Shown here piece after piece: positions 4,872 through 35,928 of a DNA stretch of 39,877 nt. Numbering within the stretch: the first letter of the stretch is position 1; every line of letters begins with the position of its first letter. Made by a program: the position numbers and the translations under genes. Source of the DNA: a virus; the IMG/VR virus record IMGVR_UViG_3300044726_000143, positions 1 through 39,877 of that record. The stretch is one strand, 5' to 3'. Under the pieces are notes generated by a model. That model did no database searches. It was not told where the DNA came from and saw nothing but the letters and a program-made list of their open reading frames with translations.

Positions 4872-5014
4872 TCCGATGGCTGGCCTGGCTCTGGTCGCCG
4901 TGCCGTCTCGGCCATCAGCCTCGGATGTACGAGCGCGACTCGGGCGGTCGTCTCCTGCTCGTCTGTCCGCGCTGTCGACACGCGCGTGTCATCCGCCTCA
5001 GGGTGTCCGCATGA
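4868..5014 (+). CDS. Small basic Cys-containing protein, 48 aa
   Basis: A TTG at 4868 overlaps the HNH stop (TTGA). The translation is short, Trp/Arg-rich at the start (LIRWLAWLWSP), with one isolated Cys at C13 and one pair, VCPRCRHARVIRLRVS. Proteins with 'C..GH....' plus 'CxRC.H' spacing occur between HNH and terS genes in related phages as tiny zinc-finger proteins. The start codon and size make this less secure than its neighbours. Confidence 0.45.
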   Translation: MIRWLAWLWSPCRLGHQPRMYERDSGGRLLLVCPRCRHARVIRLRVSA

Positions 5015-5212
5015 CACGTTCCGATTCCGATCCGCGAACGCATTTTCGATTTCGATTTTCATTTCTATTTCGATCATCCGATCGATCGCGAGCGATCAGG
5101 TCGACCGGGGGGATCGAAAATCGCTGGCGGCCGACCCCCGGCAAACCATCTGGGCCATTCGCTCGTGCACGGGGCCATTCGAAAGGCGTAATCCAATGAG
5201 AGGGCTATTCAT
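5015..5212. promoter_or_regulatory. Non-coding gap before terS: candidate packaging (cos) region
   Basis: Between the HNH genes and terS lies about 200 bp with no credible gene. CGAT occurs eight times in 75 bp (starts at 5022, 5028, 5047, 5053, 5071, 5079, 5083, 5093), partly in T-rich spacing unlike the rest of the genome. Next come the palindrome GGTCGACC (5099-5106), a run of six G (5107-5112) and a dyad CCGGGGG / CCCCCGG (5105-5111, 5135-5141). In HK97-type phages cos, with a GC-rich overhang and TerS-binding repeats, sits just here. Assignment is by position and pattern; cleavage coordinates cannot be read. Confidence 0.45.
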
Positions 5213-23543: not shown

Positions 23544-26048
23544 ATGACAGCAGCAGCAGGTCTTCAAGTCGGCTTCGGCAATCCCATCGGCCCGGTGCTC
23601 GACGAGCTGCGCGCCCTCGGCTTCAGCATCATCCGCCTCGACCTGCAGGACTGCGATCAGGCGAAGACGACCGCGCTCGCGCAGGAAGTGCTCGACGCCG
23701 GGCTGCAGCCGCTGTGCATCATCCGCCGACCGGAGCAGATTCTCGTCCTGCCAGAGGGCGCGCTCATCGAGGCGGGCAACGAGCCAGACTTAGAGCACTT
23801 CGGCTGGACCGTCGACACCTATCGCGAGTTTGCCAACGACTGCGTGGCGCTCGCCCTCGAGCACGGACGCCGCCTCTATGTCGGCGTGGTGTCGAACCTG
23901 AACCCTCGCGGCTTCAACTTCCTGCGGCAGCTGCCGTGGTCGACCTGGCCGCCGGAAATCTGCTGCTCGATTCATCGCTACCCCGACGGCGATTCGCCGC
24001 ATAACCCGCACGACGGTTCCGCGTCTCGCGACGAGGAAGTCGCCACGTTGCGCGCCATCGTGGGCGCTCGTCCGCTCGCTTGCACTGAGGTCGGCTATCA
24101 CGACAGCGCCGAGGGCTGGACGGAGGCGGACGTCGCCGACAACATGGCATGGGAGCGGGCCTTTTTCGCCGGTCACGGGTTCGAAGTCGTCGTCGGCTAC
24201 CAGATCAACGACGGACCGGAGGCCGGACCGGAGTCGCATTACGGCTTCCGCCGGTCGAATGGCAGCTGGAAGCCGGTGGCGTTTGCGTTCCCCGGCACAC
24301 AGTTCCCGCCGCTCGAGGGGCTCATCATTTCCCTGACGAGCGACCACGCTCGCTTCCTCTCGGTGCCGACGAACCAGACCGCCATCGCCGACCGCGAGCT
24401 CGCCGGCGACTGGGAACGCTTTCAGGTCGAACGCCTCGATGGTGATCAGGTGGCGCTCCGGTCATGGCAGTGGCACTACCTGACCGCTGAACTTGACACC
24501 ACCGTGCATGCCCGTGCCGTCGAGGTCGGCCCGTGGGAGACGTGGACGATGATGCCGCTCATCGACGGGCGGCTCGCCTTTCAATCCGCGCACGGGCGCT
24601 TCCTCACTGCCGAAGTCGACGGCCAGGTGGCGGCGCGCGCCGACACGATTGGCCCGTGGGAGGCGTGGACGAGTGACCCGCCCGATTGGTGGACGAAGCC
24701 GCCGACGCCGCCAAACTTCAACCGCCTGCAGGGCGAATTGATGCGCCAGGCGCGCATCGTCAGCGATGCCAGCGGCCTGCGGACCGTCGTCAAGGGGCGG
24801 CAGGCGGTGATTCCGCGGCCACGGGTGCTGATGTTCTGCCACGCGATGGAACTGTTCTCGGCGTGGTGCCACGGACGCGAGCGCGAAGTCACCGAACAAT
24901 GCGAATCGATTGCGCAGGTCTACGCGGGCATCCGCGTCCTCGACGTGCTCGGCTACTGGGACGTCGCGTGGCTCGGACGCGAGGTGACGCCGGTCGCCTT
25001 CGTGAATCACAGCGGCGGCCACGTCGCCGCCACGCCAAACTACTACGAGCGCAAGGCGGACTTCCTCGCGATGCTGCAGAGCCTCGGCCTGAAGGTGATG
25101 GACGACCGAGGCGACATGAATTCATGGACGCGAGCGCAGAAGCTCGAACACATGCGGCGCAACGGCGAACTGTATGCCCGGCTGCCCTTCGGGCGCGAGC
25201 TGCTGGCGGGCGTCTGGTCGGCGAACGAGGGCTGGCAGAACGGCGGCAACAGCATCGAGCTATGTCAGGACATGCTCAAGTCATTTGCCCTTGGCGCCGG
25301 CTGGCTGCCTGCGCTGCGCGGCTTGTCGGCACCGGGCGGCGACTCCGACCCGTTGCGCCTCTCGCAGTGCTCGCCGCCGATGACCAGCTGGGAACCGGAA
25401 GCGCCGTGCTCGTTCGTGAACTGGGCGGCGGACCCGGCGACCACGTTGACCATTCACGGCAACCGAGGCGCGTGGGAACACATCGTCGAGCACTACTTCG
25501 CGTATGGCTACGACGACACGATGAGGAAGACGAGCAAGCCCGGCTTCAACACGGAGCCAGTCGGGCCGGGCGCGGGTGTCTCCGTCGGTCGCGTCAACGA
25601 TCCGGAATTGCTCTGTGCCTTGACGGTGGCCGCGCTCATCAGCGGGCAATGCTGGACCTACATGAGCGGGTTCGGCGTCTTCTGGGATGGCCCGATCGAT
25701 TCCCAACCGGGCTTCTTTGAGGTCGCTCGTCTGCCACAGTTCCTGCCGCAGGACATTGCCAGCTGGCCCATCGTCTGCCATTCGGGGGTGCGCTTCCGTG
25801 GCACCCGCATCCTCGCCGTCGATGACCCGACTCGCGCCGACCAGGCCATCAGCGCCGACGGCAGGTTCGCGATGGTCATTCACACGCAGGAGGCGAAGGG
25901 CAACCCGCTGCCCTGCGAACGCGCCTGCACCGAATTTTCCGTCATCAACATGCTGACAGGTGAGGTCGAACGCACCGGACCGCTGCACGTTGGCGAGACG
26001 TATCGCCATCCCGGCATCGCCCGGCTCGCGGTCGGTCGGTTGGCATAG
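23544..26048 (+). CDS. Tail protein with glycoside-hydrolase-like and fascin-like domains, 834 aa
   Basis: Start at ATG 23544 after AGAGGGGGA. Residues 1-245 look like a clan GH-A TIM barrel: FSIIRLDLQD (strand 1-2), IEAGNEPDLEHF with the N-E pair (Glu80, acid/base), and PLACTEVGYHD with Glu182 where the nucleophile sits. Residues about 255-385 are beta-trefoil repeats of the fascin type (DHARFLSVP, WHYLTAELD, HGRFLTAEVD, each followed by 'W.....'). The remainder, about 395-834, resembles another barrel-like domain (VLMFCHAMELFSAWCHG; LLAGVWSANEGWQNGG) of no family I can name. As the last large tail gene it is a good candidate for a capsule- or polysaccharide-active receptor-binding protein. 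Confidence 0.75.
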   Translation: MTAAAGLQVGFGNPIGPVLDELRALGFSIIRLDLQDCDQAKTTALAQEVLDAGLQPLCIIRRPEQILVLPEGALIEAGNEPDLEHFGWTVDTYREFANDCVALALEHGRRLYVGVVSNLNPRGFNFLRQLPWSTWPPEICCSIHRYPDGDSPHNPHDGSASRDEEVATLRAIVGARPLACTEVGYHDSAEGWTEADVADNMAWERAFFAGHGFEVVVGYQINDGPEAGPESHYGFRRSNGSWKPVAFAFPGTQFPPLEGLIISLTSDHARFLSVPTNQTAIADRELAGDWERFQVERLDGDQVALRSWQWHYLTAELDTTVHARAVEVGPWETWTMMPLIDGRLAFQSAHGRFLTAEVDGQVAARADTIGPWEAWTSDPPDWWTKPPTPPNFNRLQGELMRQARIVSDASGLRTVVKGRQAVIPRPRVLMFCHAMELFSAWCHGREREVTEQCESIAQVYAGIRVLDVLGYWDVAWLGREVTPVAFVNHSGGHVAATPNYYERKADFLAMLQSLGLKVMDDRGDMNSWTRAQKLEHMRRNGELYARLPFGRELLAGVWSANEGWQNGGNSIELCQDMLKSFALGAGWLPALRGLSAPGGDSDPLRLSQCSPPMTSWEPEAPCSFVNWAADPATTLTIHGNRGAWEHIVEHYFAYGYDDTMRKTSKPGFNTEPVGPGAGVSVGRVNDPELLCALTVAALISGQCWTYMSGFGVFWDGPIDSQPGFFEVARLPQFLPQDIASWPIVCHSGVRFRGTRILAVDDPTRADQAISADGRFAMVIHTQEAKGNPLPCERACTEFSVINMLTGEVERTGPLHVGETYRHPGIARLAVGRLA

Positions 26049-26057
26049 AGGCATCTC

Positions 26058-26213
26058 ATGATTGAACTGCTCCTCGTCCTGCTCGTGTTCATCGCGGCGT
26101 TCGTGTTGGTGCAGCAGTACGTGCCTGCGCCCGCGAAGATGCCGCTACTGGTCGTCATCGGCGTGGTGCTGGTCGTCTGGGTGTTGCGCGTCATCGGCGC
26201 GCTGCCGGTCTGA
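26058..26213 (+). CDS. Two-TM small membrane protein, holin-like, 51 aa
   Basis: Too short for most gene finders: ATG 26058 follows AGAGGCATCTC. The product has two hydrophobic helices, IELLLVLLVFIAAFVLVQ and MPLLVVIGVVLVVWVLRVIG, separated by the short loop QYVPAPAK. It resembles the small bacterial/phage membrane proteins grouped as Thivi_2564-like. Size, topology and place after the tail genes suggest a holin or lysis accessory, but no lysozyme gene lies next to it. Confidence 0.65.
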   Translation: MIELLLVLLVFIAAFVLVQQYVPAPAKMPLLVVIGVVLVVWVLRVIGALPV

Positions 26214-26219
26214 GCGGAC

Positions 26220-26276
26220 GCCCCGAGGCGCGGTCGCTCATTGGACTGGTAGCCGAACGAGGTCGCGCCTCGGGGC
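26220..26276 (+). ncRNA. Structured hairpin element, copy 1
   Basis: A perfect 13-bp stem (26220-26232 with 26264-26276) encloses a 31-nt loop that holds TGGTAGCCGAACGAGGT. A homologous element with different arm sequences but the same pairing lies at 26830-26887. Inside the loop, TTGG can pair with CCGA. It sits between two small membrane-protein genes. There is no T tract, so a simple intrinsic terminator is unlikely. Candidate structured RNA; strand assumed from gene direction. Confidence 0.5.
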
Positions 26277-26290
26277 TGATTGGAGAGGGC

Positions 26291-26611
26291 ATGCGAGCGA
26301 TGCTATCGCTGGTGTTAGTCGGCTTGTTGAGTAGTCCGGCATGGGCGCAGTCGCCGCCGAAGGCGAGCGACGACCCCGTGAACATTACGGTGGCGCTCGT
26401 CGGCACCGTCGTCGTCGGTGCTGGCTTCGGCATGATGCTGCGCCAGGACGAGCGCGGATCGTCGGACACTGGCTGGCTGGTCGGCGGCGTGGTCGTGGTG
26501 GCCGCCGGCGTCACGATGACCTACCTGGGCCTCCGGCCGCGCACGGTGACGGTGGCGCCAACGGTCAGCAAGCACGTCGTCGGCGCGACGGCGATCATTC
26601 GCTGGCGCTGA
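26291..26611 (+). CDS. Secreted/membrane protein with signal peptide, 106 aa
   Basis: GGAGAGGG (26281-26288) lies directly before ATG 26291. MRAMLSLVLVGLLSSPAWAQ is a clear Sec signal peptide cleaved after AWA. It is followed by a polar linker (SPPKASDDPVN) and two hydrophobic segments, ITVALVGTVVVGAGFGMML and TGWLVGGVVVVAAGVTMTYL. The C-terminal VTVAPTVSKHVVGATAIIRW looks like an amphipathic beta strand ending in an aromatic residue. Function unknown; with its neighbours it may form the lysis or envelope module. Confidence 0.65.
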   Translation: MRAMLSLVLVGLLSSPAWAQSPPKASDDPVNITVALVGTVVVGAGFGMMLRQDERGSSDTGWLVGGVVVVAAGVTMTYLGLRPRTVTVAPTVSKHVVGATAIIRWR

Positions 26612-26641
26612 CGCCGCATTCACCGTGGAGAGGACGCCCTC

Positions 26642-26776
26642 ATGATGACGATCGATCTCGTGCTGCTGATCCTCGCGCTCGTGTGTTTTCTCGCCGCTGC
26701 GGCGAACGTCTCGAGCTCGCGCGTCAATCTGGTCGCCGCGGGGCTCGCGATGTGGATCCTGTCGATCCTGCTCTGA
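26642..26776 (+). CDS. Small two-helix membrane protein, 44 aa
   Basis: ATG 26642 follows GAGAGGACGCC. It encodes MTIDLVLLILALVCFLAAAA and then a second hydrophobic helix, VNLVAAGLAMWILSIL, with NVSSSR between. Such two-helix micro-proteins are common in phage lysis regions and are often annotated as holins or simply membrane proteins. It is the last + strand gene before the convergent minus-strand block. No charged tail is present. Function inferred from size and position only. Confidence 0.6.
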   Translation: MMTIDLVLLILALVCFLAAAANVSSSRVNLVAAGLAMWILSILL

Positions 26777-26829
26777 TGGGCGTTTCGGGATGCCGGCGGT
26801 CCAGACCGGCACGCATTCGTCACGCGGAA

Positions 26830-26887
26830 GGCCGGGAGGCGCGTTGCTCTGTTGGTTGGTAGCCGAATGAGGTCGCGCCTCCTGGCC
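26830..26887 (+). ncRNA. Structured hairpin element, copy 2
   Basis: A 14-bp stem (26830-26843 with 26874-26887, one G-U pair) encloses a 30-nt loop containing TTGGTAGCCGAATGAGGT, nearly the same as copy 1 at 26220-26276. Outer arm bases differ from copy 1 (GGCCGGGAGG versus GCCCCGAGG), but each pairs with its own partner, which is compensatory change. ACGC/GCGT (26822-26825, 26888-26891) may lengthen the stem past a bulge. The repeated, pairing-conserved form argues for a functional RNA. Confidence 0.5.
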
Positions 26888-26978
26888 GCGTCGAGCGGCT
26901 GTCTGAGGCTCTGGGTCATTGACCTCTGCGCTGGCCTCGCCGTGGGGTGTGGGCTGTCCTGTTGGCCATTCAGGTCGG

Positions 26979-27072
26979 CTCGCCGGGACCCGGCGAGTGC
27001 CAGCGTAGAGACGCCAGCGAATCCGCACACGATTCGCTACAGTGCTGCTGATGGGACTCACTACAGAGTCCC
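26979..27072. terminator. Three hairpins between convergent operons
   Basis: Perfect dyads: CTCGCCGGG/CCCGGCGAG (26979-26997), AGCGAATC/GATTCGCT (27016-27038, 7-nt loop) and GGGACTC/GAGTCCC (27053-27072, 6-nt loop). They lie within 95 bp, just past the last + strand gene and just past the end of the minus-strand retropepsin gene. No U tract follows, so function as bidirectional terminators is by position only. Confidence 0.4.
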
Positions 27073-27104
27073 GCTATGTGATTACGGAGAACGGCCTGGT
27101 CGGA

Positions 27105-27554
27105 CTAGTACCCGAGCGAAAAATAACCGAAGTCGCCGTTGTAGTTCAGGATGCAACGGCGCAGGATGTCCCGCCCGATCAGAGCGTGAAAGCCTTGCGC
27201 GAGGAGCAAGTCGCTTTCCATCACCGGGATCGTCGGAAAGATCAGTGCCTGATGCTTTGCGGACTGTCCAGGTATATACAGGCCGACGTCGAACTGATTC
27301 TTCGGCACCGGAGTCGTTCCCGTCGAGGGGGTCAGCATCATGGCCACGTTGGTTGGCGTCAATCCGAGTTGCGCCATCACCGATGGATCAATGCAGGTGC
27401 CGCTTGCGCCAGTATCGAGAAGGGCGCGAATATTGACGGCCGGCGGAATCGGCTGCTTCGCTTGTGTTAGCGCCGCATGACGCGGAGCGCTGACCGCCAC
27501 GAGAGCATTCAGCATTGGCCCCTCGGGGCCGATGCTCAGCGTGAAGTGAGCCAT
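27105..27554 (-). CDS. Retropepsin-like aspartic protease domain protein
   Basis: 149 aa. IRALLDTGASGTCID (catalytic Asp47 in DTGAS) and FHALIGRDIL (120s), the hydrophobic-hydrophobic-Gly psi motif near the end, are the two hallmarks of single-domain retroviral-type aspartic proteases. With a single DTG it would need to dimerise. The enzyme would cleave peptides in the cytoplasm; there is no signal peptide. It is the second gene of a minus-strand pair with the 78-aa protein three bases upstream. Both differ in strand and composition from the late genes, consistent with cargo expressed from the prophage. Bacterial homologues of the pair exist in chromosomes by my recollection; the substrate is unknown. 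Confidence 0.8.
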   Translation of the reverse strand: MAHFTLSIGPEGPMLNALVAVSAPRHAALTQAKQPIPPAVNIRALLDTGASGTCIDPSVMAQLGLTPTNVAMMLTPSTGTTPVPKNQFDVGLYIPGQSAKHQALIFPTIPVMESDLLLAQGFHALIGRDILRRCILNYNGDFGYFSLGY

Positions 27555-27557
27555 GAC

Positions 27558-27794
27558 TCAGGCGAATCGAGGTTCGATGAATCGCGTCACGAAGTGAACC
27601 GGCTGCATGGCGCGAATCTGGCGAACCAGGAACGGCTCCAGACTAAATTTCTGGTAGCCCTCTTTGATGGCATCCTCGTAGCTGGAGAAGATGTTGATGA
27701 TTGCGTCACCCTTGATCAAAACGAACTTGCCCTCGTCCGCCTTGAGGGTGTCGAGGTTCGCATCGTAGGTCGCGATTTCCTTTTCGAGGGCCAT
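27558..27794 (-). CDS. Partner of retropepsin gene, 78 aa
   Basis: Start taken at ATG 27794, preceded by GGGGACAG on the minus strand; the longer frame to 27845 begins at a TTG that overlaps the promoter -10. The sequence MALEKEIATYDANLDTLKAD, then EGKFVLIKGDAIINIFSSYE and DAIKEGYQKFSLEPFLVRQI, matches a short family found beside aspartyl-protease genes in bacteria ('EGKFVLI.GD.....F.SYE.A...GY..F...PFLV..I'). It is probably the protease's substrate, regulator or delivery partner. Function unproved. Confidence 0.75.
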   Translation of the reverse strand: MALEKEIATYDANLDTLKADEGKFVLIKGDAIINIFSSYEDAIKEGYQKFSLEPFLVRQIRAMQPVHFVTRFIEPRFA

Positions 27795-27830
27795 GTGTTG
27801 CTGTCCCCAGTCGGTAGGGAATCTATACCT

Positions 27831-27856
27831 ATTATACGTTTTCAAACGAACGTCAA
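27831..27856 (-). promoter_or_regulatory. Putative promoter for the retropepsin pair
   Basis: On the minus strand a perfect TATAAT (27831-27836) lies about 37 bases upstream of ATG 27794, with TTGACG at 27851-27856. The spacer of 14 bp is shorter than optimal, so another -35 or a regulator may be involved. A -10 this good is rare in such G+C-rich DNA and suggests autonomous expression in the lysogen. Confidence 0.45.
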
Positions 27857-27985
27857 CCCGTGCACGAGCCGAGTAGCAGTCCGGAGGAATTTTGCCGTGT
27901 ATGGAGCGGCGTTGAAAACGGGGCTTTCGGGGGTTTCGAGGGGTGACACCGCGTGAGGGCCTGTCGTGTTCCCCTCTATGAAATG

Positions 27986-28033
27986 TGGTGGACGGCAGGA
28001 GGATCGAACTCCCGACCTCAGCGTTGCGAACGC
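27986..28033 (-). other. attP: attP core: 3' half of a tRNA-Ala(CGC)
   Basis: On the minus strand this reads from an anticodon loop TTCGCAA (28024-28030) through stem CGCTG, T stem-loop GGGAG TTCGATC CTCCT, acceptor strand GCCGTCC, discriminator A and CCA ending at 27986. The anticodon is CGC (Ala), and U70 is present as needed for the G3:U70 identity pair. The D arm and 5' half are absent. It lies 17-64 bases past the integrase stop, the normal attP arrangement. Integration would restore a whole tRNA gene. Confidence 0.8.
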
Positions 28034-28049
28034 TTTTGGGACGGCCATA

Positions 28050-29270
28050 TTAGGCCGAAATCATTGGGCCTTTGGCCGGGCGTTTACGAAACGTGGATGG
28101 CTGGCGAGTCAGGACGTTGACGGCCGCCCGGCCTTGCGTCGGCGCCAGGTGCGCGTACCGCTCGGTCGTCTTGATGCTGGCGTGGCCCATCAGTTCCTTC
28201 ACCACGTAGAGGTTGACGCCGCGCTGGACGAGCTTCGACGCGAACGTGTGGCGCATATCCTTCCAGGCGAAGTCCCGAATCTTGGTGCCGTGCATCAGTT
28301 CGTCCCAGCTCGTCGGCGCCCCCGTGTAGGGTTTCCCGCCTTTGCCAGGAAAGATCAACCGATCGGGCGGCGTCTGGCCAGCCTGCTCCTGCCAACGCTT
28401 CAGGGCGCGCAGCGCGTCGGCGTTCAGCGGCAGGCGGCGCGTCTTGCGCACCTTGGACACCCACCACTCCACCGTCAGGACCTTCGCGTGCCAATCAACC
28501 ACCGACCAGGTGATCCGGAATAACTCCGCCGGCCGCACGCCGGTATGGAGCGCCACGATGACCATCGGCGTGAGCGCGTCCTTGTAGACGCCGACGGTCA
28601 CCGGGTCTTTGCCGCGCTCGGCACGCCAGGCGTTGAACCGTCTGCGCGCGGCGATCCCGTCGTCGTCCCGTGCCTCGAGCGCGGCGAAGAGGCGCTTCTC
28701 TTCCTTGCGATCGAGGTAGCGGATTACTTCGCGTGACGGCGCCGCCTTGATGCGCATGGCGGCCAAGGGAGACGCCTCGATCACCTCGAGCGGGTCGACG
28801 GCATTCGACAGCAGCCCGCGCAAGTCGCTCAGGTCGCGGCCGATGGTATGCGCCGACACGCCATCCTTCCGGCGTTTCTTCCGCCATTCCTCGATCTTGG
28901 CCTTGCTGATCTGGTCGAGCGGCGTATGGCCGAAGAGCGGCACGAAATGCCGATCGAGTCGACCGATGGCCTGCTCGGCGCTGGACGGGTGCTCTCGGCG
29001 CAACCACTCCCGATAGGTGTCGCGCAGGAAGGCGCGCAGCGTCGGCGCCGTCGTCGAGGCCAGCGCGTCTGGCAGGTTCAAGTCCCGTTTGGAGAGGTCC
29101 GCCATCGCCTGGTGATAGGCGACCTCCGCCAGGCGTCGGTTCTCTTTGTCCTGCTCTTTCGTCCCGGTGGCGTGAAGGATGCGCGTCGGCCTGCGTAGGC
29201 AGCGCAACCCCTTCCCGCGTTCGAGATTGAGCTGGTAGTACTTCGAGTCCGGTCGAACGACGACGCCCAC
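28050..29270 (-). CDS. int: Tyrosine-recombinase integrase
   Basis: 406 aa. A basic N-terminal part (about 1-75) is followed by a SAM-like core-binding domain (PTLRAFLRDTYREWLRREHP, about 76-160) and the catalytic domain: LHTGVRPAELFRI with Arg246, a Lys in the beta hairpin near 273-276, DMRHTFASKL with Arg340 (the usual preceding His is Lys337), LMGHAS with His363 and the nucleophile Tyr372 in TERYAHL. It catalyses attP x attB recombination, probably at tRNA-Ala. It is the last gene of the minus-strand lysogeny operon and its stop lies against attP. Confidence 0.95.
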   Translation of the reverse strand: MGVVVRPDSKYYQLNLERGKGLRCLRRPTRILHATGTKEQDKENRRLAEVAYHQAMADLSKRDLNLPDALASTTAPTLRAFLRDTYREWLRREHPSSAEQAIGRLDRHFVPLFGHTPLDQISKAKIEEWRKKRRKDGVSAHTIGRDLSDLRGLLSNAVDPLEVIEASPLAAMRIKAAPSREVIRYLDRKEEKRLFAALEARDDDGIAARRRFNAWRAERGKDPVTVGVYKDALTPMVIVALHTGVRPAELFRITWSVVDWHAKVLTVEWWVSKVRKTRRLPLNADALRALKRWQEQAGQTPPDRLIFPGKGGKPYTGAPTSWDELMHGTKIRDFAWKDMRHTFASKLVQRGVNLYVVKELMGHASIKTTERYAHLAPTQGRAAVNVLTRQPSTFRKRPAKGPMISA

Positions 29271-29294
29271 GCGGTTATCGCGTCCGACCGACGG

Positions 29295-29813
29295 TCATCG
29301 GAGGGTGGCCTTATATTTCTCGACGATCGCGGGCGGCAACTCGCTGCGGCAATGCTTGCAAATGATGGCCTCGGCCAGGACGAGCTCGGCGCAGTAGGGA
29401 CACTTGCGACGCCGGTCGCGCGACGAGCCGTCGCCACCTGTCGGTTGGAAGGGCCGTTGCTTGAGCGCGGCCTGCGCGACGGGCGACGTGAGGGGAATCA
29501 TGCCCGGCGCCTGACACTGCGGGCAGCCCGCGTACTTCGAGGTGATGCGCCACAACGTATACAACACGCCAGGCAGAACCATCAGCAACCACAGGAGAAT
29601 CTCCATGCCGAAGCTCCCCTTTGTGTAACGCTTGGGGATTGCCACGGTCCCGCACGCCGTGCAATACAACGAGCCATTGAGCGTCTCGCTGGCGTTGAAC
29701 GCCGGCCGACCTTTCGCGTCGGTCGGCAGGTTCTGTTTGCACTGCGTGCAGTAGTACGAATCGGTCGGAATCTCGAAGCCGCAGAGCGGGCACGGAGCTG
29801 TTGGTGTGGTCAT
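29295..29813 (-). CDS. LITAF-like zinc-ribbon membrane protein
   Basis: 172 aa. Three zinc sites: C8-C11/C22-C25; C51-C54 with C97-C100; C138-C141/C152-C155. Between the second pair lies a hydrophobic hairpin, SFGMEILLWLLMVLPGVLYT (67-86), then LWRI, giving a CxxC - membrane segment - CxxC layout with MIPLTSP after it, the pattern of bacterial LITAF-like domains that dip into the membrane inner face. It is encoded between repressor and integrase, so probably made in the lysogen. A role in superinfection exclusion or host membrane modification is inference. No signal peptide. Confidence 0.7.
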   Translation of the reverse strand: MTTPTAPCPLCGFEIPTDSYYCTQCKQNLPTDAKGRPAFNASETLNGSLYCTACGTVAIPKRYTKGSFGMEILLWLLMVLPGVLYTLWRITSKYAGCPQCQAPGMIPLTSPVAQAALKQRPFQPTGGDGSSRDRRRKCPYCAELVLAEAIICKHCRSELPPAIVEKYKATLR

Positions 29814-29843
29814 GACTATCCGACTCGACGCTTCAACGCCTTA

Positions 29844-30329
29844 TCAACCAGCTTTTCGATGACGGCTGCTGCGACGGGACGTTCCCTTTGGAGCTTTTCG
29901 AACTTCTTCCATACGAGTTGCGATTTCGTGCAGGTCGTCTGAAATTTGCAGCACTTCGCGGGCTTCTTTTTCGTAGCGGGCAACGAGGTCTGAGAGCCGT
30001 TGCAGCTCCATACGAGTCGCAGCTGGGTCATCGCGAGGATCTCCTGGGGAGGAAGTCCCAGACTGTTGATCCGAACCCTGTCGGATCAGGTCACGCACTT
30101 TGTCGTACGCGGGATCGAGCCCGACCAGTAATTCATCAACCGTGCATCCCACGGCCTTCGCCAATCTAAGCAGCGTTGGCGTGTTCGGAAGGTCGACCTT
30201 GTCGTGAAGCCAACCGGAAACCGCTGATTTCACGACACCGAGAGCTTTCGCGACGTCGGTCACGCGGACTCCTGAACGATTCATCAGCGCGCGTAGATTG
30301 CTGCCGAATGTCGGCTGGCTCTGCCCCAA
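29844..30329 (-). CDS. Prophage repressor (XRE HTH), CI-like
   Basis: From TTG 30329 the protein is 161 aa; an ATG at 30431 in the same frame would give 195 aa but would place two operators inside the coding region, so the shorter start is preferred, though it lacks a clear ribosome site. HTH at about 22-41: VTDVAKALGVVKSAVSGWLH, then LRLAKAVGCTVDELL. The C-terminal half is a coiled coil (ELQRLSDLVARYEKEAREVL) rather than a LexA/S24 peptidase, so RecA-driven self-cleavage is unlikely and induction must work another way. First gene of the minus-strand lysogeny operon, next to the operator array. Confidence 0.8.
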   Translation of the reverse strand: MGQSQPTFGSNLRALMNRSGVRVTDVAKALGVVKSAVSGWLHDKVDLPNTPTLLRLAKAVGCTVDELLVGLDPAYDKVRDLIRQGSDQQSGTSSPGDPRDDPAATRMELQRLSDLVARYEKEAREVLQISDDLHEIATRMEEVRKAPKGTSRRSSRHRKAG

Positions 30330-30392
30330 GGCAGTACAACCATAGCCAACATGTGAAGTTTTTTGTAGCTGTAACTCTAAGACAGTAAAGAA

Positions 30393-30410
30393 GTTCTCTA
30401 CCAAGAGAAC
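30393..30410. promoter_or_regulatory. Operator A (repressor side)
   Basis: Perfect 18-bp palindrome GTTCTC-N6-GAGAAC with an extra inner T-A pair. Same half-site as operators B and C; nearest to the repressor gene, within its upstream region. Centre 43 bp from operator B. Confidence 0.75.
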
Positions 30411-30414
30411 AGCG

Positions 30415-30430
30415 TGGTTATCCGTAACCA
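30415..30430. promoter_or_regulatory. Distinct palindrome between operators A and B
   Basis: TGGTTA TCCG TAACCA, a perfect 6-bp-arm dyad unrelated in sequence to the TTCTC operators. It overlaps the alternative repressor start at 30431. It may bind a second regulator, such as the Cro-like protein or the 137-aa protein. Confidence 0.5.
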
Positions 30431-30434
30431 TAAA

Positions 30435-30454
30435 TATTCTCTTGACGGAGAATA
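30435..30454. promoter_or_regulatory. Operator B, contains the rightward -35
   Basis: TATTCTC-TTGACG-GAGAATA, a 7-bp-arm dyad around a TTGACG hexamer (30442-30447) that looks like the -35 of the rightward lytic promoter. Binding here would block that promoter directly. Confidence 0.75.
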
Positions 30455-30471
30455 ACAACCCGCCGTAAGGT
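30442..30471 (+). promoter_or_regulatory. Putative rightward lytic promoter
   Basis: -35 TTGACG at 30442-30447, 18-bp spacer, weak -10 TAAGGT at 30466-30471. It is flanked by operators B and C and lies just upstream of the Cro-like gene at 30490. The poor -10 is a caveat. Confidence 0.45.
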
Positions 30472-30487
30472 TCTCTTCACAGAGAAC
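30470..30487. promoter_or_regulatory. Operator C (lytic side)
   Basis: Perfect 18-bp palindrome GTTCTC-N6-GAGAAC, two bases before the ATG of the Cro-like gene. Centre 34 bp from operator B. It covers the likely transcription start of the rightward promoter. Confidence 0.75.
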
Positions 30488-30489
30488 AC

Positions 30490-30750
30490 ATGTCAAAGCC
30501 CCTAACGCCAGAACAAGTCGACGCATTGCGGTCGGTGCCTCTCGGAGAGATGCCGAACAAGTTGAAGGTCGCGGCCAGCATGGTCGGGGTCCGGCAGGCA
30601 GAGATTGCTGATGAAGTCGAGATCGCTCCGTCGAATCTCAGCGACATCTTCAACGGCAAATACGTCGACCTCCAGTTCGAGACCACGCGCAAGTTCGCCG
30701 AGTTCTTCGCTTGCCCCGTCGAAATTCTGTTTCCGAAGAGGGCGGCGTAA
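30490..30750 (+). CDS. Cro-like HTH regulator
   Basis: 86 aa, first gene to the right of the operator array. HTH at about 36-57: QAEIADEVEIAPSNLSDIFN, followed by ETTRKFAEFFACPVEILFP, the usual XRE closing helix (A-x-x-F-x-x-x-x-x-x-L-F-P). It faces the repressor on the other strand, the classical divergent switch layout, and would repress the repressor gene early in lytic growth. The leader is very short, with GAGA at 30482-30485 as the only ribosome-site-like sequence. Confidence 0.8.
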   Translation: MSKPLTPEQVDALRSVPLGEMPNKLKVAASMVGVRQAEIADEVEIAPSNLSDIFNGKYVDLQFETTRKFAEFFACPVEILFPKRAA

Positions 30751-30754
30751 CCAC

Positions 30755-31168
30755 ATGGCCCCGAGCATCGCAGCCGTGGCGCGGAAAGAGGAAGGAAACG
30801 CTCTTGCCGAGCGGTTGCCGGGTCTGATCGGTTCAGTGCAGAAGCGGGGGCAACCGGACGGCAAGTTACTTGCCGGCGAGTGGCTGATGCCGTTGGTGAT
30901 GCGTGCGGTGGATCGCGTGATGAGCCGCAAGGAAGGCGCGCTGCTCTGCGGATTAAGTGAGCCGGAATTCAGTAAGCAACTCTCTGGCGCGGAAGGGAAG
31001 TCGCTGAACGTGCGCAAGCTGGGCGCGCTTGGCGAGCGGTTCACCATAGCGTTCGCCGACGAGATTCGCGCGGAGTTCAAGCTCGATGATCCGGCTGCGA
31101 GGATTGAACGCGCGGCGGAGTTGGTGACGCGTGGGCTGGCGATGCTGGTCGGCGAGGTGAAACGTTGA
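30755..31168 (+). CDS. Putative early regulator, 137 aa
   Basis: ATG 30755 is four bases after the Cro-like stop; the frame is open earlier but without sense. A helical protein: MAPSIAAVARKEEGNALAER, MPLVMRAVDRVMSRKEGALL, CGLSEPEFSKQLSGAEGKSL. The part from RKEGALLCGLSEPEFSKQLS reads like a helix-turn-helix (A-x-x-x-G-x-x-x-x-x-x-S-x-x-x), as in CII-like or other early phage activators. Tightly linked to the next gene by a TTGA overlap. The exact family is not recognised. Confidence 0.6.
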   Translation: MAPSIAAVARKEEGNALAERLPGLIGSVQKRGQPDGKLLAGEWLMPLVMRAVDRVMSRKEGALLCGLSEPEFSKQLSGAEGKSLNVRKLGALGERFTIAFADEIRAEFKLDDPAARIERAAELVTRGLAMLVGEVKR

Positions 31169-31305
31169 TCGAGGCCCTCTTTCTCGCATTGTCGATCGGC
31201 TGCGCTTTTGGCGGCGGACGCTCCTGGCGGACAGCGTCCGGCAAAGCGTTCTCCGTCATCCTCGCGATCCTTTCAATTCTTTTCGGAGTGCTCGCATGGG
31301 CCTGA
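31165..31305 (+). CDS. Small membrane protein, 46 aa
   Basis: A TTG at 31165 overlaps the preceding stop (TTGA). The product has two hydrophobic stretches, LIEALFLALSIGCAFGGG and FSVILAILSILFGVLAWA, joined by a short basic loop RSWRTASGK. Its stop overlaps the next gene's start by ten bases. Not detectable by length-limited gene calling, so moderate confidence. Possibly an envelope-acting early protein. Confidence 0.45.
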   Translation: MIEALFLALSIGCAFGGGRSWRTASGKAFSVILAILSILFGVLAWA

Positions 31306-31544
31306 AGACCTACATCACTTATTCGCAGCTGGCTGCGAAGATCGGCTTCCACGGCAAGCGCGCGCCTGAAGCGGCCCGGAAGTGGGTCGTGCGTCGCTCC
31401 ATTCCCAAACGGTGGCGCGATGGGGCCTGGCTCGTGGCGGAAGAGGACGTCCAGGCCTCCCTGGACGGGCATTCCTTCGTGCGAGGGCAGGGCAGTCATC
31501 TCGCGCCGGTGACCCGGAAGCGTGCCTTCGCGAAGGCGTCGTAA
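31296..31544 (+). CDS. HTH protein, possible excisionase
   Basis: 82 aa. ITYSQLAAKIGFHGKRAPEA followed by ARKWVVRRSIPKRWRDGAWL is a winged-helix/MerR-like layout as in AlpA/excisionase proteins: helix-turn-helix, then the R-x-x-I-P-x-R-W-x-x-G-x-W wing in which the W-x-x-G segment is typical. A basic tail PVTRKRAFAKAS follows. Phages with tyrosine integrases need a directionality factor, and this is the best candidate in the window. It could equally be another small regulator. Confidence 0.6.
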   Translation: MGLKTYITYSQLAAKIGFHGKRAPEAARKWVVRRSIPKRWRDGAWLVAEEDVQASLDGHSFVRGQGSHLAPVTRKRAFAKAS

Positions 31545-35022: not shown

Positions 35023-35928
35023 ATGGGGAGAATTCGAACCATCAAGCCGAGCTTCTTCACGAGCGAAGACATCTGCAAGGTGCAGCCGATCGGGCGCCTG
35101 TTGTTCCAGGGCCTCTGGATTGAAGCCGATCGCGACGGCTACCTGGCGGACAGTCCGTTCCAGCTAAAGACTCGCATCCTGCCGGCGGATGACTGCAACG
35201 TCGACCGCCTGCTCTGGGAGCTCGCTGACGCGAACTTGATCCGCCGCTTCACCGCCGCCAACGGCCGCCACTACATTCAGATCCTGACGTTCATCGAGCA
35301 TCAGCGACCGCACCCCAAAGAGCCCAAGAGTGTCATCCCGCATGACGGTTCTGACCGCCGGCGCGCGGCTGCCGCGGAAAAAAACGGCGGGCCGCGGCAG
35401 GTTACCGGAAGCAAGGAACTTCAGGACGCCGCGGAAAAAAACGGCGGGCCGCGGCAGGTTACGGGATGCTTCCCGTCGAGTCCCGTGGGAAGGGAAGGAG
35501 ATCTGGAGTATGGAGATCTAGGAAGGGAAGGGAAGGGAACCGACCACACGCCTCAGGGCGTCCAGACGCGGGGAGCGTTTGAACCCGGTTCGTTGCCACG
35601 TGACCACGTGCGGCATTCGTTGTGCGGCGGGCAGATGCGCCTGTGCCTCAGCGAAACCGTCTACGGGAAGTTCCTCACCCGGTACGGGGGGCCGCCGCCA
35701 GTGGCTCGGGCGGCCTTGCAGCGTTTTGTCGACGAGCTCGAGACCGAGCACGAGGCGCTCGGCGATTTCCGTTGGCTCGAGGATCACTTCACGGCGTTCC
35801 TGCGTCAAACGGGTCGGCTGAAGGACGCGGCACGAGACCAGGTGCCGGTGGACACCCGCCACGCGCAAAAACTGCGTGACATTCGGGACGGAAGATTTAC
35901 CCAGAACGGGAAACCGATCCGTGGTTGA
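35023..35928 (+). CDS. Replication initiator (O-like), origin-containing
   Basis: 301 aa. The N-terminal 105 residues match phage replisome-organiser winged helices: MGRIRTIKPSFFTSEDICKV, LLFQGLWIEADRDGYLADSP, LLWELADANLIRRF and HYIQILTFIEHQRPHPKEP. Residues 116-150 hold a twice-repeated AAEKNGGPRQVTG (19-residue period) encoded by exact 35-bp DNA repeats, then a Gly/Arg/Glu-rich linker. The C-terminal 90 residues are helical (ETVYGKFLTRYGGPPPVARA) and probably contact the helicase. It binds the origin and recruits the DnaB helicase encoded next. No primase or polymerase is present, so host enzymes must be used. Confidence 0.85.
   Translation: MGRIRTIKPSFFTSEDICKVQPIGRLLFQGLWIEADRDGYLADSPFQLKTRILPADDCNVDRLLWELADANLIRRFTAANGRHYIQILTFIEHQRPHPKEPKSVIPHDGSDRRRAAAAEKNGGPRQVTGSKELQDAAEKNGGPRQVTGCFPSSPVGREGDLEYGDLGREGKGTDHTPQGVQTRGAFEPGSLPRDHVRHSLCGGQMRLCLSETVYGKFLTRYGGPPPVARAALQRFVDELETEHEALGDFRWLEDHFTAFLRQTGRLKDAARDQVPVDTRHAQKLRDIRDGRFTQNGKPIRG
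35371..35462. repeat. Candidate replication-origin iterons (2 x 35 bp)
   Basis: Identical 35-bp direct repeats at 35371-35405 and 35428-35462, 57 bp apart (19 codons). Each is itself a dyad, GCCGCGG ... CCGCGGC, with an A7 tract in the centre. Lambda's origin has the same design inside gene O: dyad iterons with an A-rich middle, followed by a purine-biased melting region. Binding by the encoded initiator is inferred. Confidence 0.6.
35486..35539 (+). other. Purine-strand tract beside the iterons
   Basis: About 54 bases almost all G and A on the + strand, including GGAGATCT twice (35497-35504, 35512-35519) and GGGAA/GGAAG runs. It follows the iterons directly, as the unwinding region does in lambdoid origins, though here it is G-rich rather than A-rich. 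It codes for a low-complexity Gly/Arg/Glu linker. Confidence 0.45.

Follow-up and report, generated by a model that had tools for sequence, protein, structure and literature searches.

Two hairpins with a shared loop at the end of a phage late operon as candidate mRNA end or processing signals

The late-operon end and its two hairpins

The window, i.e., the whole stretch of 39,877 nucleotides that was analysed (IMG/VR virus record IMGVR_UViG_3300044726_000143), carries a temperate tailed phage in which rightward terminase, portal, protease, and tail genes are followed by a leftward integrase and helix-turn-helix regulator, and a 126-nt repeat at both contig ends suggests that the contig is complete. 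Small proteins are encoded at the end of the late operon, beyond which lies the gap facing the leftward genes (Table 1). The first-pass annotation had described two hairpins framing the small membrane-protein genes at this end of the operon, and this description holds, since p106 and p44 are flanked by hairpin 1 (hp1) and hairpin 2 (hp2), with p51 preceding hp1. The 77 nt that separate p51 from p106 are largely taken up by hp1, and GGAGAGGG (26282 to 26289), which lies 5 nt past hp1 and ahead of p106, is unpaired in the predicted fold. hp2 starts 53 nt past the p44 stop codon. A promoter scan of positions 25900 to 31500 returned no sigma-70-like site.

Table 1. Coordinates of the hairpins and of neighbouring features (positions are those of the window unless a record is named)
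Feature	Position	Strand	Description
p51	26058..26213	+	Small protein, two hydrophobic stretches; its stop codon lies 6 nt upstream of hp1
hp1	26220..26276	+	Perfect, GC-rich 13-bp stem, GCCCCGAGGCGCG-31 nt-CGCGCCTCGGGGC; 31-nt loop containing a CUC/GAG inner stem and conserved TGGTAGCCGAACGAGGT; from sequence, folding, and covariance model R1
Conserved loop block of hp1, GGTAGCCGAACGAGGT	26248..26263	+	
p106	26291..26611	+	Small membrane protein, signal-peptide-like
p44	26642..26776	+	Small two-helix protein, last product of the late operon; from translation
Convergent gap	26777..27104	.	Late operon versus leftward integrase-side genes; contains hp2
hp2	26830..26887	+	14-bp stem including one G-U (G-T in DNA), GGCCGGGAGGCGCG-30 nt-CGCGCCTCCTGGCC; 30-nt loop with the same conserved block as hp1, TGGTAGCCGAATGAGGT; from sequence, folding, and covariance model R1
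Conserved loop block of hp2, GGTAGCCGAATGAGGT	26858..26873	+	
Retropepsin-like aspartyl protease	27105..27554	-	First leftward gene, nearest hp2; Pfam PF13650 (E 2.5e-07), also PF00077
Arthrobacter phage hairpin	L206:18062-18130; L205:18317-18382		Also in 35 further Arthrobacter phage records

Both hairpins were confirmed with the stems and loops given in Table 1, and the duplicated structured element reported earlier is real. The two copies are intergenic, lie in the same orientation, and have a 25-nt block in common with one difference; when all hairpins within the window were compared with each other, they were the sole pair returned (24 of 25 positions identical; E 1e-6). GGTAGCCGAANGAGGT occurs twice in the window, with no third occurrence at up to 2 mismatches (searched at 3 mismatches). 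Stems of at least 13 bp with loops of 25 to 35 nt were found in the window at hp1 and hp2 only, and first-order Markov sequences of the same composition held a mean of 0.175 such registers per window, with 12.5% containing any. Jointly, hp1 and hp2 are far beyond chance. Their flanks are unrelated, except for GCGGA immediately before each copy. The absence of a T tract after either hairpin was borne out both by the sequences found there (TGATTGGAG for hp1 and GCGTCGAGC for hp2) and by a terminator scan, in which neither appeared.

RNA folding of the + strand gave -39.5 kcal/mol (z -3.0) for hp1 and -47.4 kcal/mol (z -4.2) for hp2, and on the - strand z was -5.5 and -2.7, respectively. RNA folding was thus stronger than that of shuffled sequences on both strands, as was DNA folding (z -4 to -5.5), so that the strand cannot be told from folding alone.

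Other sequence elements were seen in and near this region. To the right of hp2, the convergent gap contains three shorter perfect palindromes (26978 to 27072), CTCGCCGGGACCCGGCGAG, AGCGAATC-N7-GATTCGCT, and GGGACTC-N6-GAGTCCC. At 35371 to 35469, a 42-nt sequence is repeated at 57-nt spacing (95% identical) inside a replication-initiator-like gene (35023 to 35928). p106 had a weak, sub-cutoff match to TrbC/VirB2 pilin (E 9e-4).

Further copies, relatives, and sequence constraint

The element had no further copy in 2.9 million viral contigs, which were scanned with DNA patterns of it and with the portal, p843, and p106 proteins, or, as an exact pattern, in 85,000 prokaryote genomes, and a gapped apex pattern had no matches in viral contigs. 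A covariance model built from hp1 and hp2 (R1) gave no convincing match in 40 portal-related phage records or in 775 whole genomes (379 plus 396, from two phyla that were picked from chance matches); p106 homologues in the same 775 genomes were likewise limited to weak matches. The sole R1 match with an E value below 0.05, in genome L204, lies inside an ORF and is expected by chance across 775 genomes, and R1 matches in relatives L021, L076, L020, and L017 had chance scores, those in L076 and L020 also lying inside ORFs. Loop-pattern matches in viral contigs and genomes (L001/L002, L086/L087, L088/L089, and further contigs) did not form the hairpin: among the further matches listed, none had an enclosing stem like that of hp1 and hp2 (longest run, 9 bp), and the inspected ones overlap long ORFs. 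A BLAST search of phages and plasmids with the segment returned chance matches only. Rfam covariance models run against the window gave no match at gathering score, the best sub-threshold one being F6 (22.9 of 46 bits). The first-pass annotation had held that a lack of further copies in relatives would refute its proposal, and none was found in any relative or collection searched. Among all these collections, hp1 and hp2 are an orphan element of two copies in one genome.

Seeming paired hairpins in relatives G004 and G006 proved to be coding sequence (a radical-SAM-like gene). In these portal-related phages (G004:31616-33570 [L097]; G006:39368-41200 [L102 and L103]), a His-Gly-Asp-type repeat protein is followed by a radical-SAM/SPASM-like protein (CNLQCAYCYE), and this gene pair at the late-operon end looks like a repeat peptide and a maturase. 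A short repeated, strongly self-complementary sequence was also seen close to a contig end (G002:1232-1563 [L092]).

When hp1 and hp2 were aligned, 14 of 59 columns differed. Two adjacent outer-arm pairs have changed on both sides while keeping a pair (C-G to G-C and C-G to G-U), the outermost stem pair forms in hp2 only, and the eight inner stem pairs (GAGGCGCG/CGCGCCTC) are identical in both copies. The claim that the outer arms differ yet stay paired therefore stands for those two pairs but does not extend to the inner eight, and the further claim of compensatory change within one genome was overstated: the observed value of the pairing statistic was reached by 114 of 500 shuffles, which is not significant, and two sequences cannot pass a covariance test of the arms. 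The covariation term for the alignment was -1.25 kcal/mol. Adjacent double changes can come from one template-switch mutation, a mechanism proposed for RNA hairpins generally (PMC8794818), and both compensatory pairs could stem from one such event. The differences are unevenly spread, with 1 of 25 columns in the 3' half (loop and stem) differing versus 13 of 34 elsewhere (permutation p 0.023); on the 5' side of the apex, 5 of 7 columns differ. This uneven spread hints at sequence constraint in the 3' half.

The same data bear on whether the element acts as DNA, i.e., as a palindrome to which a protein of the phage or host binds (a repressor, integrase accessory, packaging, or replication signal). 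Perfect palindromes function on either strand, the DNA folds are strong, and repeated inverted repeats in actinobacteriophages have often been interpreted as protein-binding DNA (PMC3203893). Nevertheless, a DNA-level site seems improbable to us, given that compensatory arm changes between copies are needless for a sequence-specific DNA-binding protein, that the 30-nt spacer is long, that the G-T pair of hp2 would weaken a DNA cruciform, and that hp1 lies within the late operon, apart from the integrase and repressor genes.

Homologues of p106 (49 to 54% identical) were found in two relatives, L111 (the same as G031) and G013, in which they are preceded by 44-amino-acid two-helix proteins in the place of p51. 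There, the stop and start codons of the two-transmembrane (2TM) gene and p106 overlap, with no hairpin between them. hp1 is thus missing at the homologous junction of both, which means that it was either inserted in the lineage of this phage or lost from both relatives; at 49 to 54% protein identity, the comparison is suggestive but not decisive. The nearest relative (98% identical) is a fragment that ends at 25868, i.e., before hp1. We propose that hp1 and hp2 arose by duplication within this phage lineage. In G013, a repeated GNCACGAA motif and two small hairpins lie upstream of the 2TM-p106 gene pair (5010 to 5075 [L121]).

The first-pass annotation had also suggested a mobile hairpin, and an element of this kind (REP- or PeSL-like and moved in trans) might have been inserted twice at gene 3' ends, with any regulation secondary. 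In its favour, hp1 forms an extra segment of about 77 nt where the two relatives have a closed junction, and the two copies have nothing but the GCGGA pentamer in common in their flanks. We nonetheless judge mobility unlikely, as only two copies exist in a contig whose end repeat suggests completeness, no copy or wider family appeared in the other phages and genomes searched, a convincing target-site duplication was not found, and the distance of the relatives means that absence there could equally be loss.

A late-operon-end hairpin in Arthrobacter phages

The cultured phages that matched best by portal protein were Arthrobacter phages (43 to 51% identical). In two of these that were read whole, the convergent junction has a bidirectional, terminator-like hairpin with A/T tracts and an adjoining second hairpin. 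BLAST located the region of this second hairpin in 37 records of Arthrobacter phages, a count that includes repeat entries for the same phage, and the region was aligned (A5) and modelled (covariance model R2) across the genera Andrewvirus, Coralvirus, Kuleanavirus, and Galaxyvirus. In 14 distinct sequences it forms a 15-bp stem with 96.7% of cells paired and ten both-sided changes, at two pairs. Its covariation score was reached by none of 500 shuffles, a control that does not remove relatedness. The loop is nearly invariant (CCACC-NN-AGTGTCAGCAAGGG, with the near-invariant loop CCACCNNAGTGTCAGCAAGGG). No match at a family's gathering score was obtained in Rfam, and a description of this hairpin was not found in the literature searched.

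hp1 and hp2 are not members of this family: with the R2 model (loop CCACCNNAGTGTCAGCAAGGGAGG), hp1 scored 11 bits (E 3.6), which is noise, and hp2 was not listed. The likeness is one of design, in that portal-related phages have a GC stem, here of 15 bp, with covarying pairs and a loop of about 32 nt with a near-invariant block; the convergent junction after the late operon is shared by the Arthrobacter hairpin and hp2 only. In contrast to hp1 and hp2, the Arthrobacter hairpin is present in single copy beyond a T-tract terminator, and it has no sequence similarity to them. By these comparisons, the window hairpins are analogues of the Arthrobacter hairpin, with place and design in common and no demonstrable ancestry. 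More speculatively, and in our view doubtfully, all of these hairpins might be independent instances of one design that recurs among these temperate phages, making up a novel class of cis-acting RNA signals in phages with a stem that varies while staying paired, a fixed loop, and a place at the late-operon end, which would be read by a protein or RNA polymerase and would set late mRNA ends or insulate the lysogeny operon. The Arthrobacter phage hairpin is a better lead than hp1 and hp2: as a covarying element of 37 cultured-phage records that is absent from Rfam, it may matter more, and it is directly testable in laboratory hosts.

Possible roles and comparison with known systems

From the position and shape of hp1 and hp2 we infer a function that would comprise transcription, cleavage or end formation, and recognition by a protein. 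Our preferred reading, which we hold tentatively, is that they act in cis, as stem-loops of the rightward late mRNA, and serve as transcript-end or processing signals. Several observations point this way. Each copy lies between genes, downstream of an ORF and in coding orientation; hp1 nearly fills its gap while leaving the ribosome-binding site of p106 unpaired, and hp2 sits where the rightward operon must end, opposite the integrase operon. hp2 has a G-U pair on the + strand where the other strand would give C-A, the stems are without a U tract, and the differences between copies largely avoid the 3' half. In L111 and G013, the 2TM gene is joined to p106 by overlapping codons without a hairpin, and portal-related Arthrobacter phages keep a hairpin of like design, with significant covariation, at the same junction. 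Experimental precedents also exist (PMC10311766, PMC8269248).

Each hairpin sits just 3' of a small membrane-protein gene, hp1 of p51 and hp2 of p44. The long GC stem would block 3' exonucleases, and the structured stem-loop could direct cleavage or 3'-end formation, so that hp1 would uncouple p106 from p51 (coupled in the relatives via their overlapping stop and start codons) and the last genes would gain their own mRNA ends. In the outer stem, pairing would suffice; sequence would be kept in the inner stem and on the loop's 3' side, where a nuclease or RNA-binding protein would perhaps read it. Against this reading, the element is known as two copies in one genome, with no orthologue found by which structure or loop could be seen to persist over time, folding does not clearly favour the + strand (the lowest z for hp1 being that of the - strand), both compensatory pairs are explicable by one template switch, a plain barrier or terminator needs no conserved loop, and the Arthrobacter phage hairpin, lying beyond the bidirectional terminator, there suits the leftward transcript better. 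RNA signals at phage operon ends are poorly annotated outside model phages, and if hp1 and hp2 do set mRNA ends, this would show how the last small membrane-protein genes of one phage come to be uncoupled.

The nearest rival is that hp1 and hp2 are U-less ("I-shaped") or Rho-assisted terminators, hp2 possibly bidirectional and hp1 partial and internal, with the similarity of the loops reflecting mere descent from a fairly recent duplication. Of the criteria for an intrinsic terminator, a GC-rich stem 3' of a gene is present, but a U tract directly after the stem is not. hp2 has the convergent position expected of a terminator, and in two cultured relatives, Kuleana and Leona, this junction is occupied by a bidirectional A/T-tract terminator. 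Structured, U-poor transcript ends are common in GC-rich Streptomyces clavuligerus, where they have been compared with I-shaped terminators (PMC8269248); these ends resemble hp1 and hp2 in their strong GC stem (here 13 to 14 bp), the absence of a U tract, their place 3' of genes, and the GC-rich genome but differ in having short loops and in not being defined by shared sequence. The loops of 30 to 31 nt are far from the optimum of 4 to 8 quoted in the same study, hp1 is internal to the operon, and a recent duplication predicts an even spread of differences along the element, unlike the uneven one seen. We therefore regard termination as possible, though somewhat less probable than the end or processing role proposed above.

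T4-type PeSLs are mobile regulatory cassettes in which an early promoter is paired with a terminator stem-loop, and they are thought to move. Like hp1 and hp2, they are stem-loops in phage intergenic gaps; unlike PeSLs, which have an early promoter, hp1 and hp2 have no promoter-like site found near them. REPs, or GTAG-tagged palindromes (PMC12306157), are similarly extragenic and in some cases lie at operon 3' ends. A genome that has REPs holds multiple copies built on one consensus, whereas hp1 and hp2 have their GTAG within the loop and number two in the phage and none in the genomes searched.

Repeated intergenic motifs are also known from actinobacteriophages, namely, SAS/ESAS (Cluster K and EF) and the inverted repeats of Cluster O and EG (PMC3203893, PMC7302621). 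These are likewise short, repeated, in several cases inversely symmetrical, and between phage genes, but they are mostly located just upstream of start codons and in 8 to 19 copies. A rightward gene, p106, follows hp1, but none follows hp2, and the conserved 13-bp ribosome-site motif linked to SAS, GGGATAGGAGCCC, was not found at 26277 to 26290. The arms of ESAS, unlike those of hp1 and hp2, do not support RNA pairing.

The put RNAs of HK022 (PMC9378689) provide an example of two similar structured RNAs of about 70 nt in one phage genome, and the loop of hp1 and hp2 reads GAGG on one strand and CCUC on its complement, as might suit a small regulatory or antitermination (put-like) RNA produced from the hairpins. 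However, put RNAs have two stem-loops each, lie near early promoters, and act on RNA polymerase, whereas hp1 and hp2 are single hairpins at an operon end. Together with the negative promoter and Rfam searches, and with the loop complement TTCGGCTACC having no other exact match within the window, this makes an RNA of either kind very improbable. For antitermination, which the first-pass annotation had raised, the place of hp2 at the extreme operon end, facing the leftward operon, also renders a role unlikely.

In the cip-cel operon, stem-loops between genes signal cleavage and lend stability to the ends of processed mRNAs, as demonstrated experimentally (PMC10311766). hp1 and hp2 resemble them in being GC-rich and lying in operon gaps, and they would likewise determine cleavage positions and shield mRNA ends; the two phage copies also share their loop sequence.
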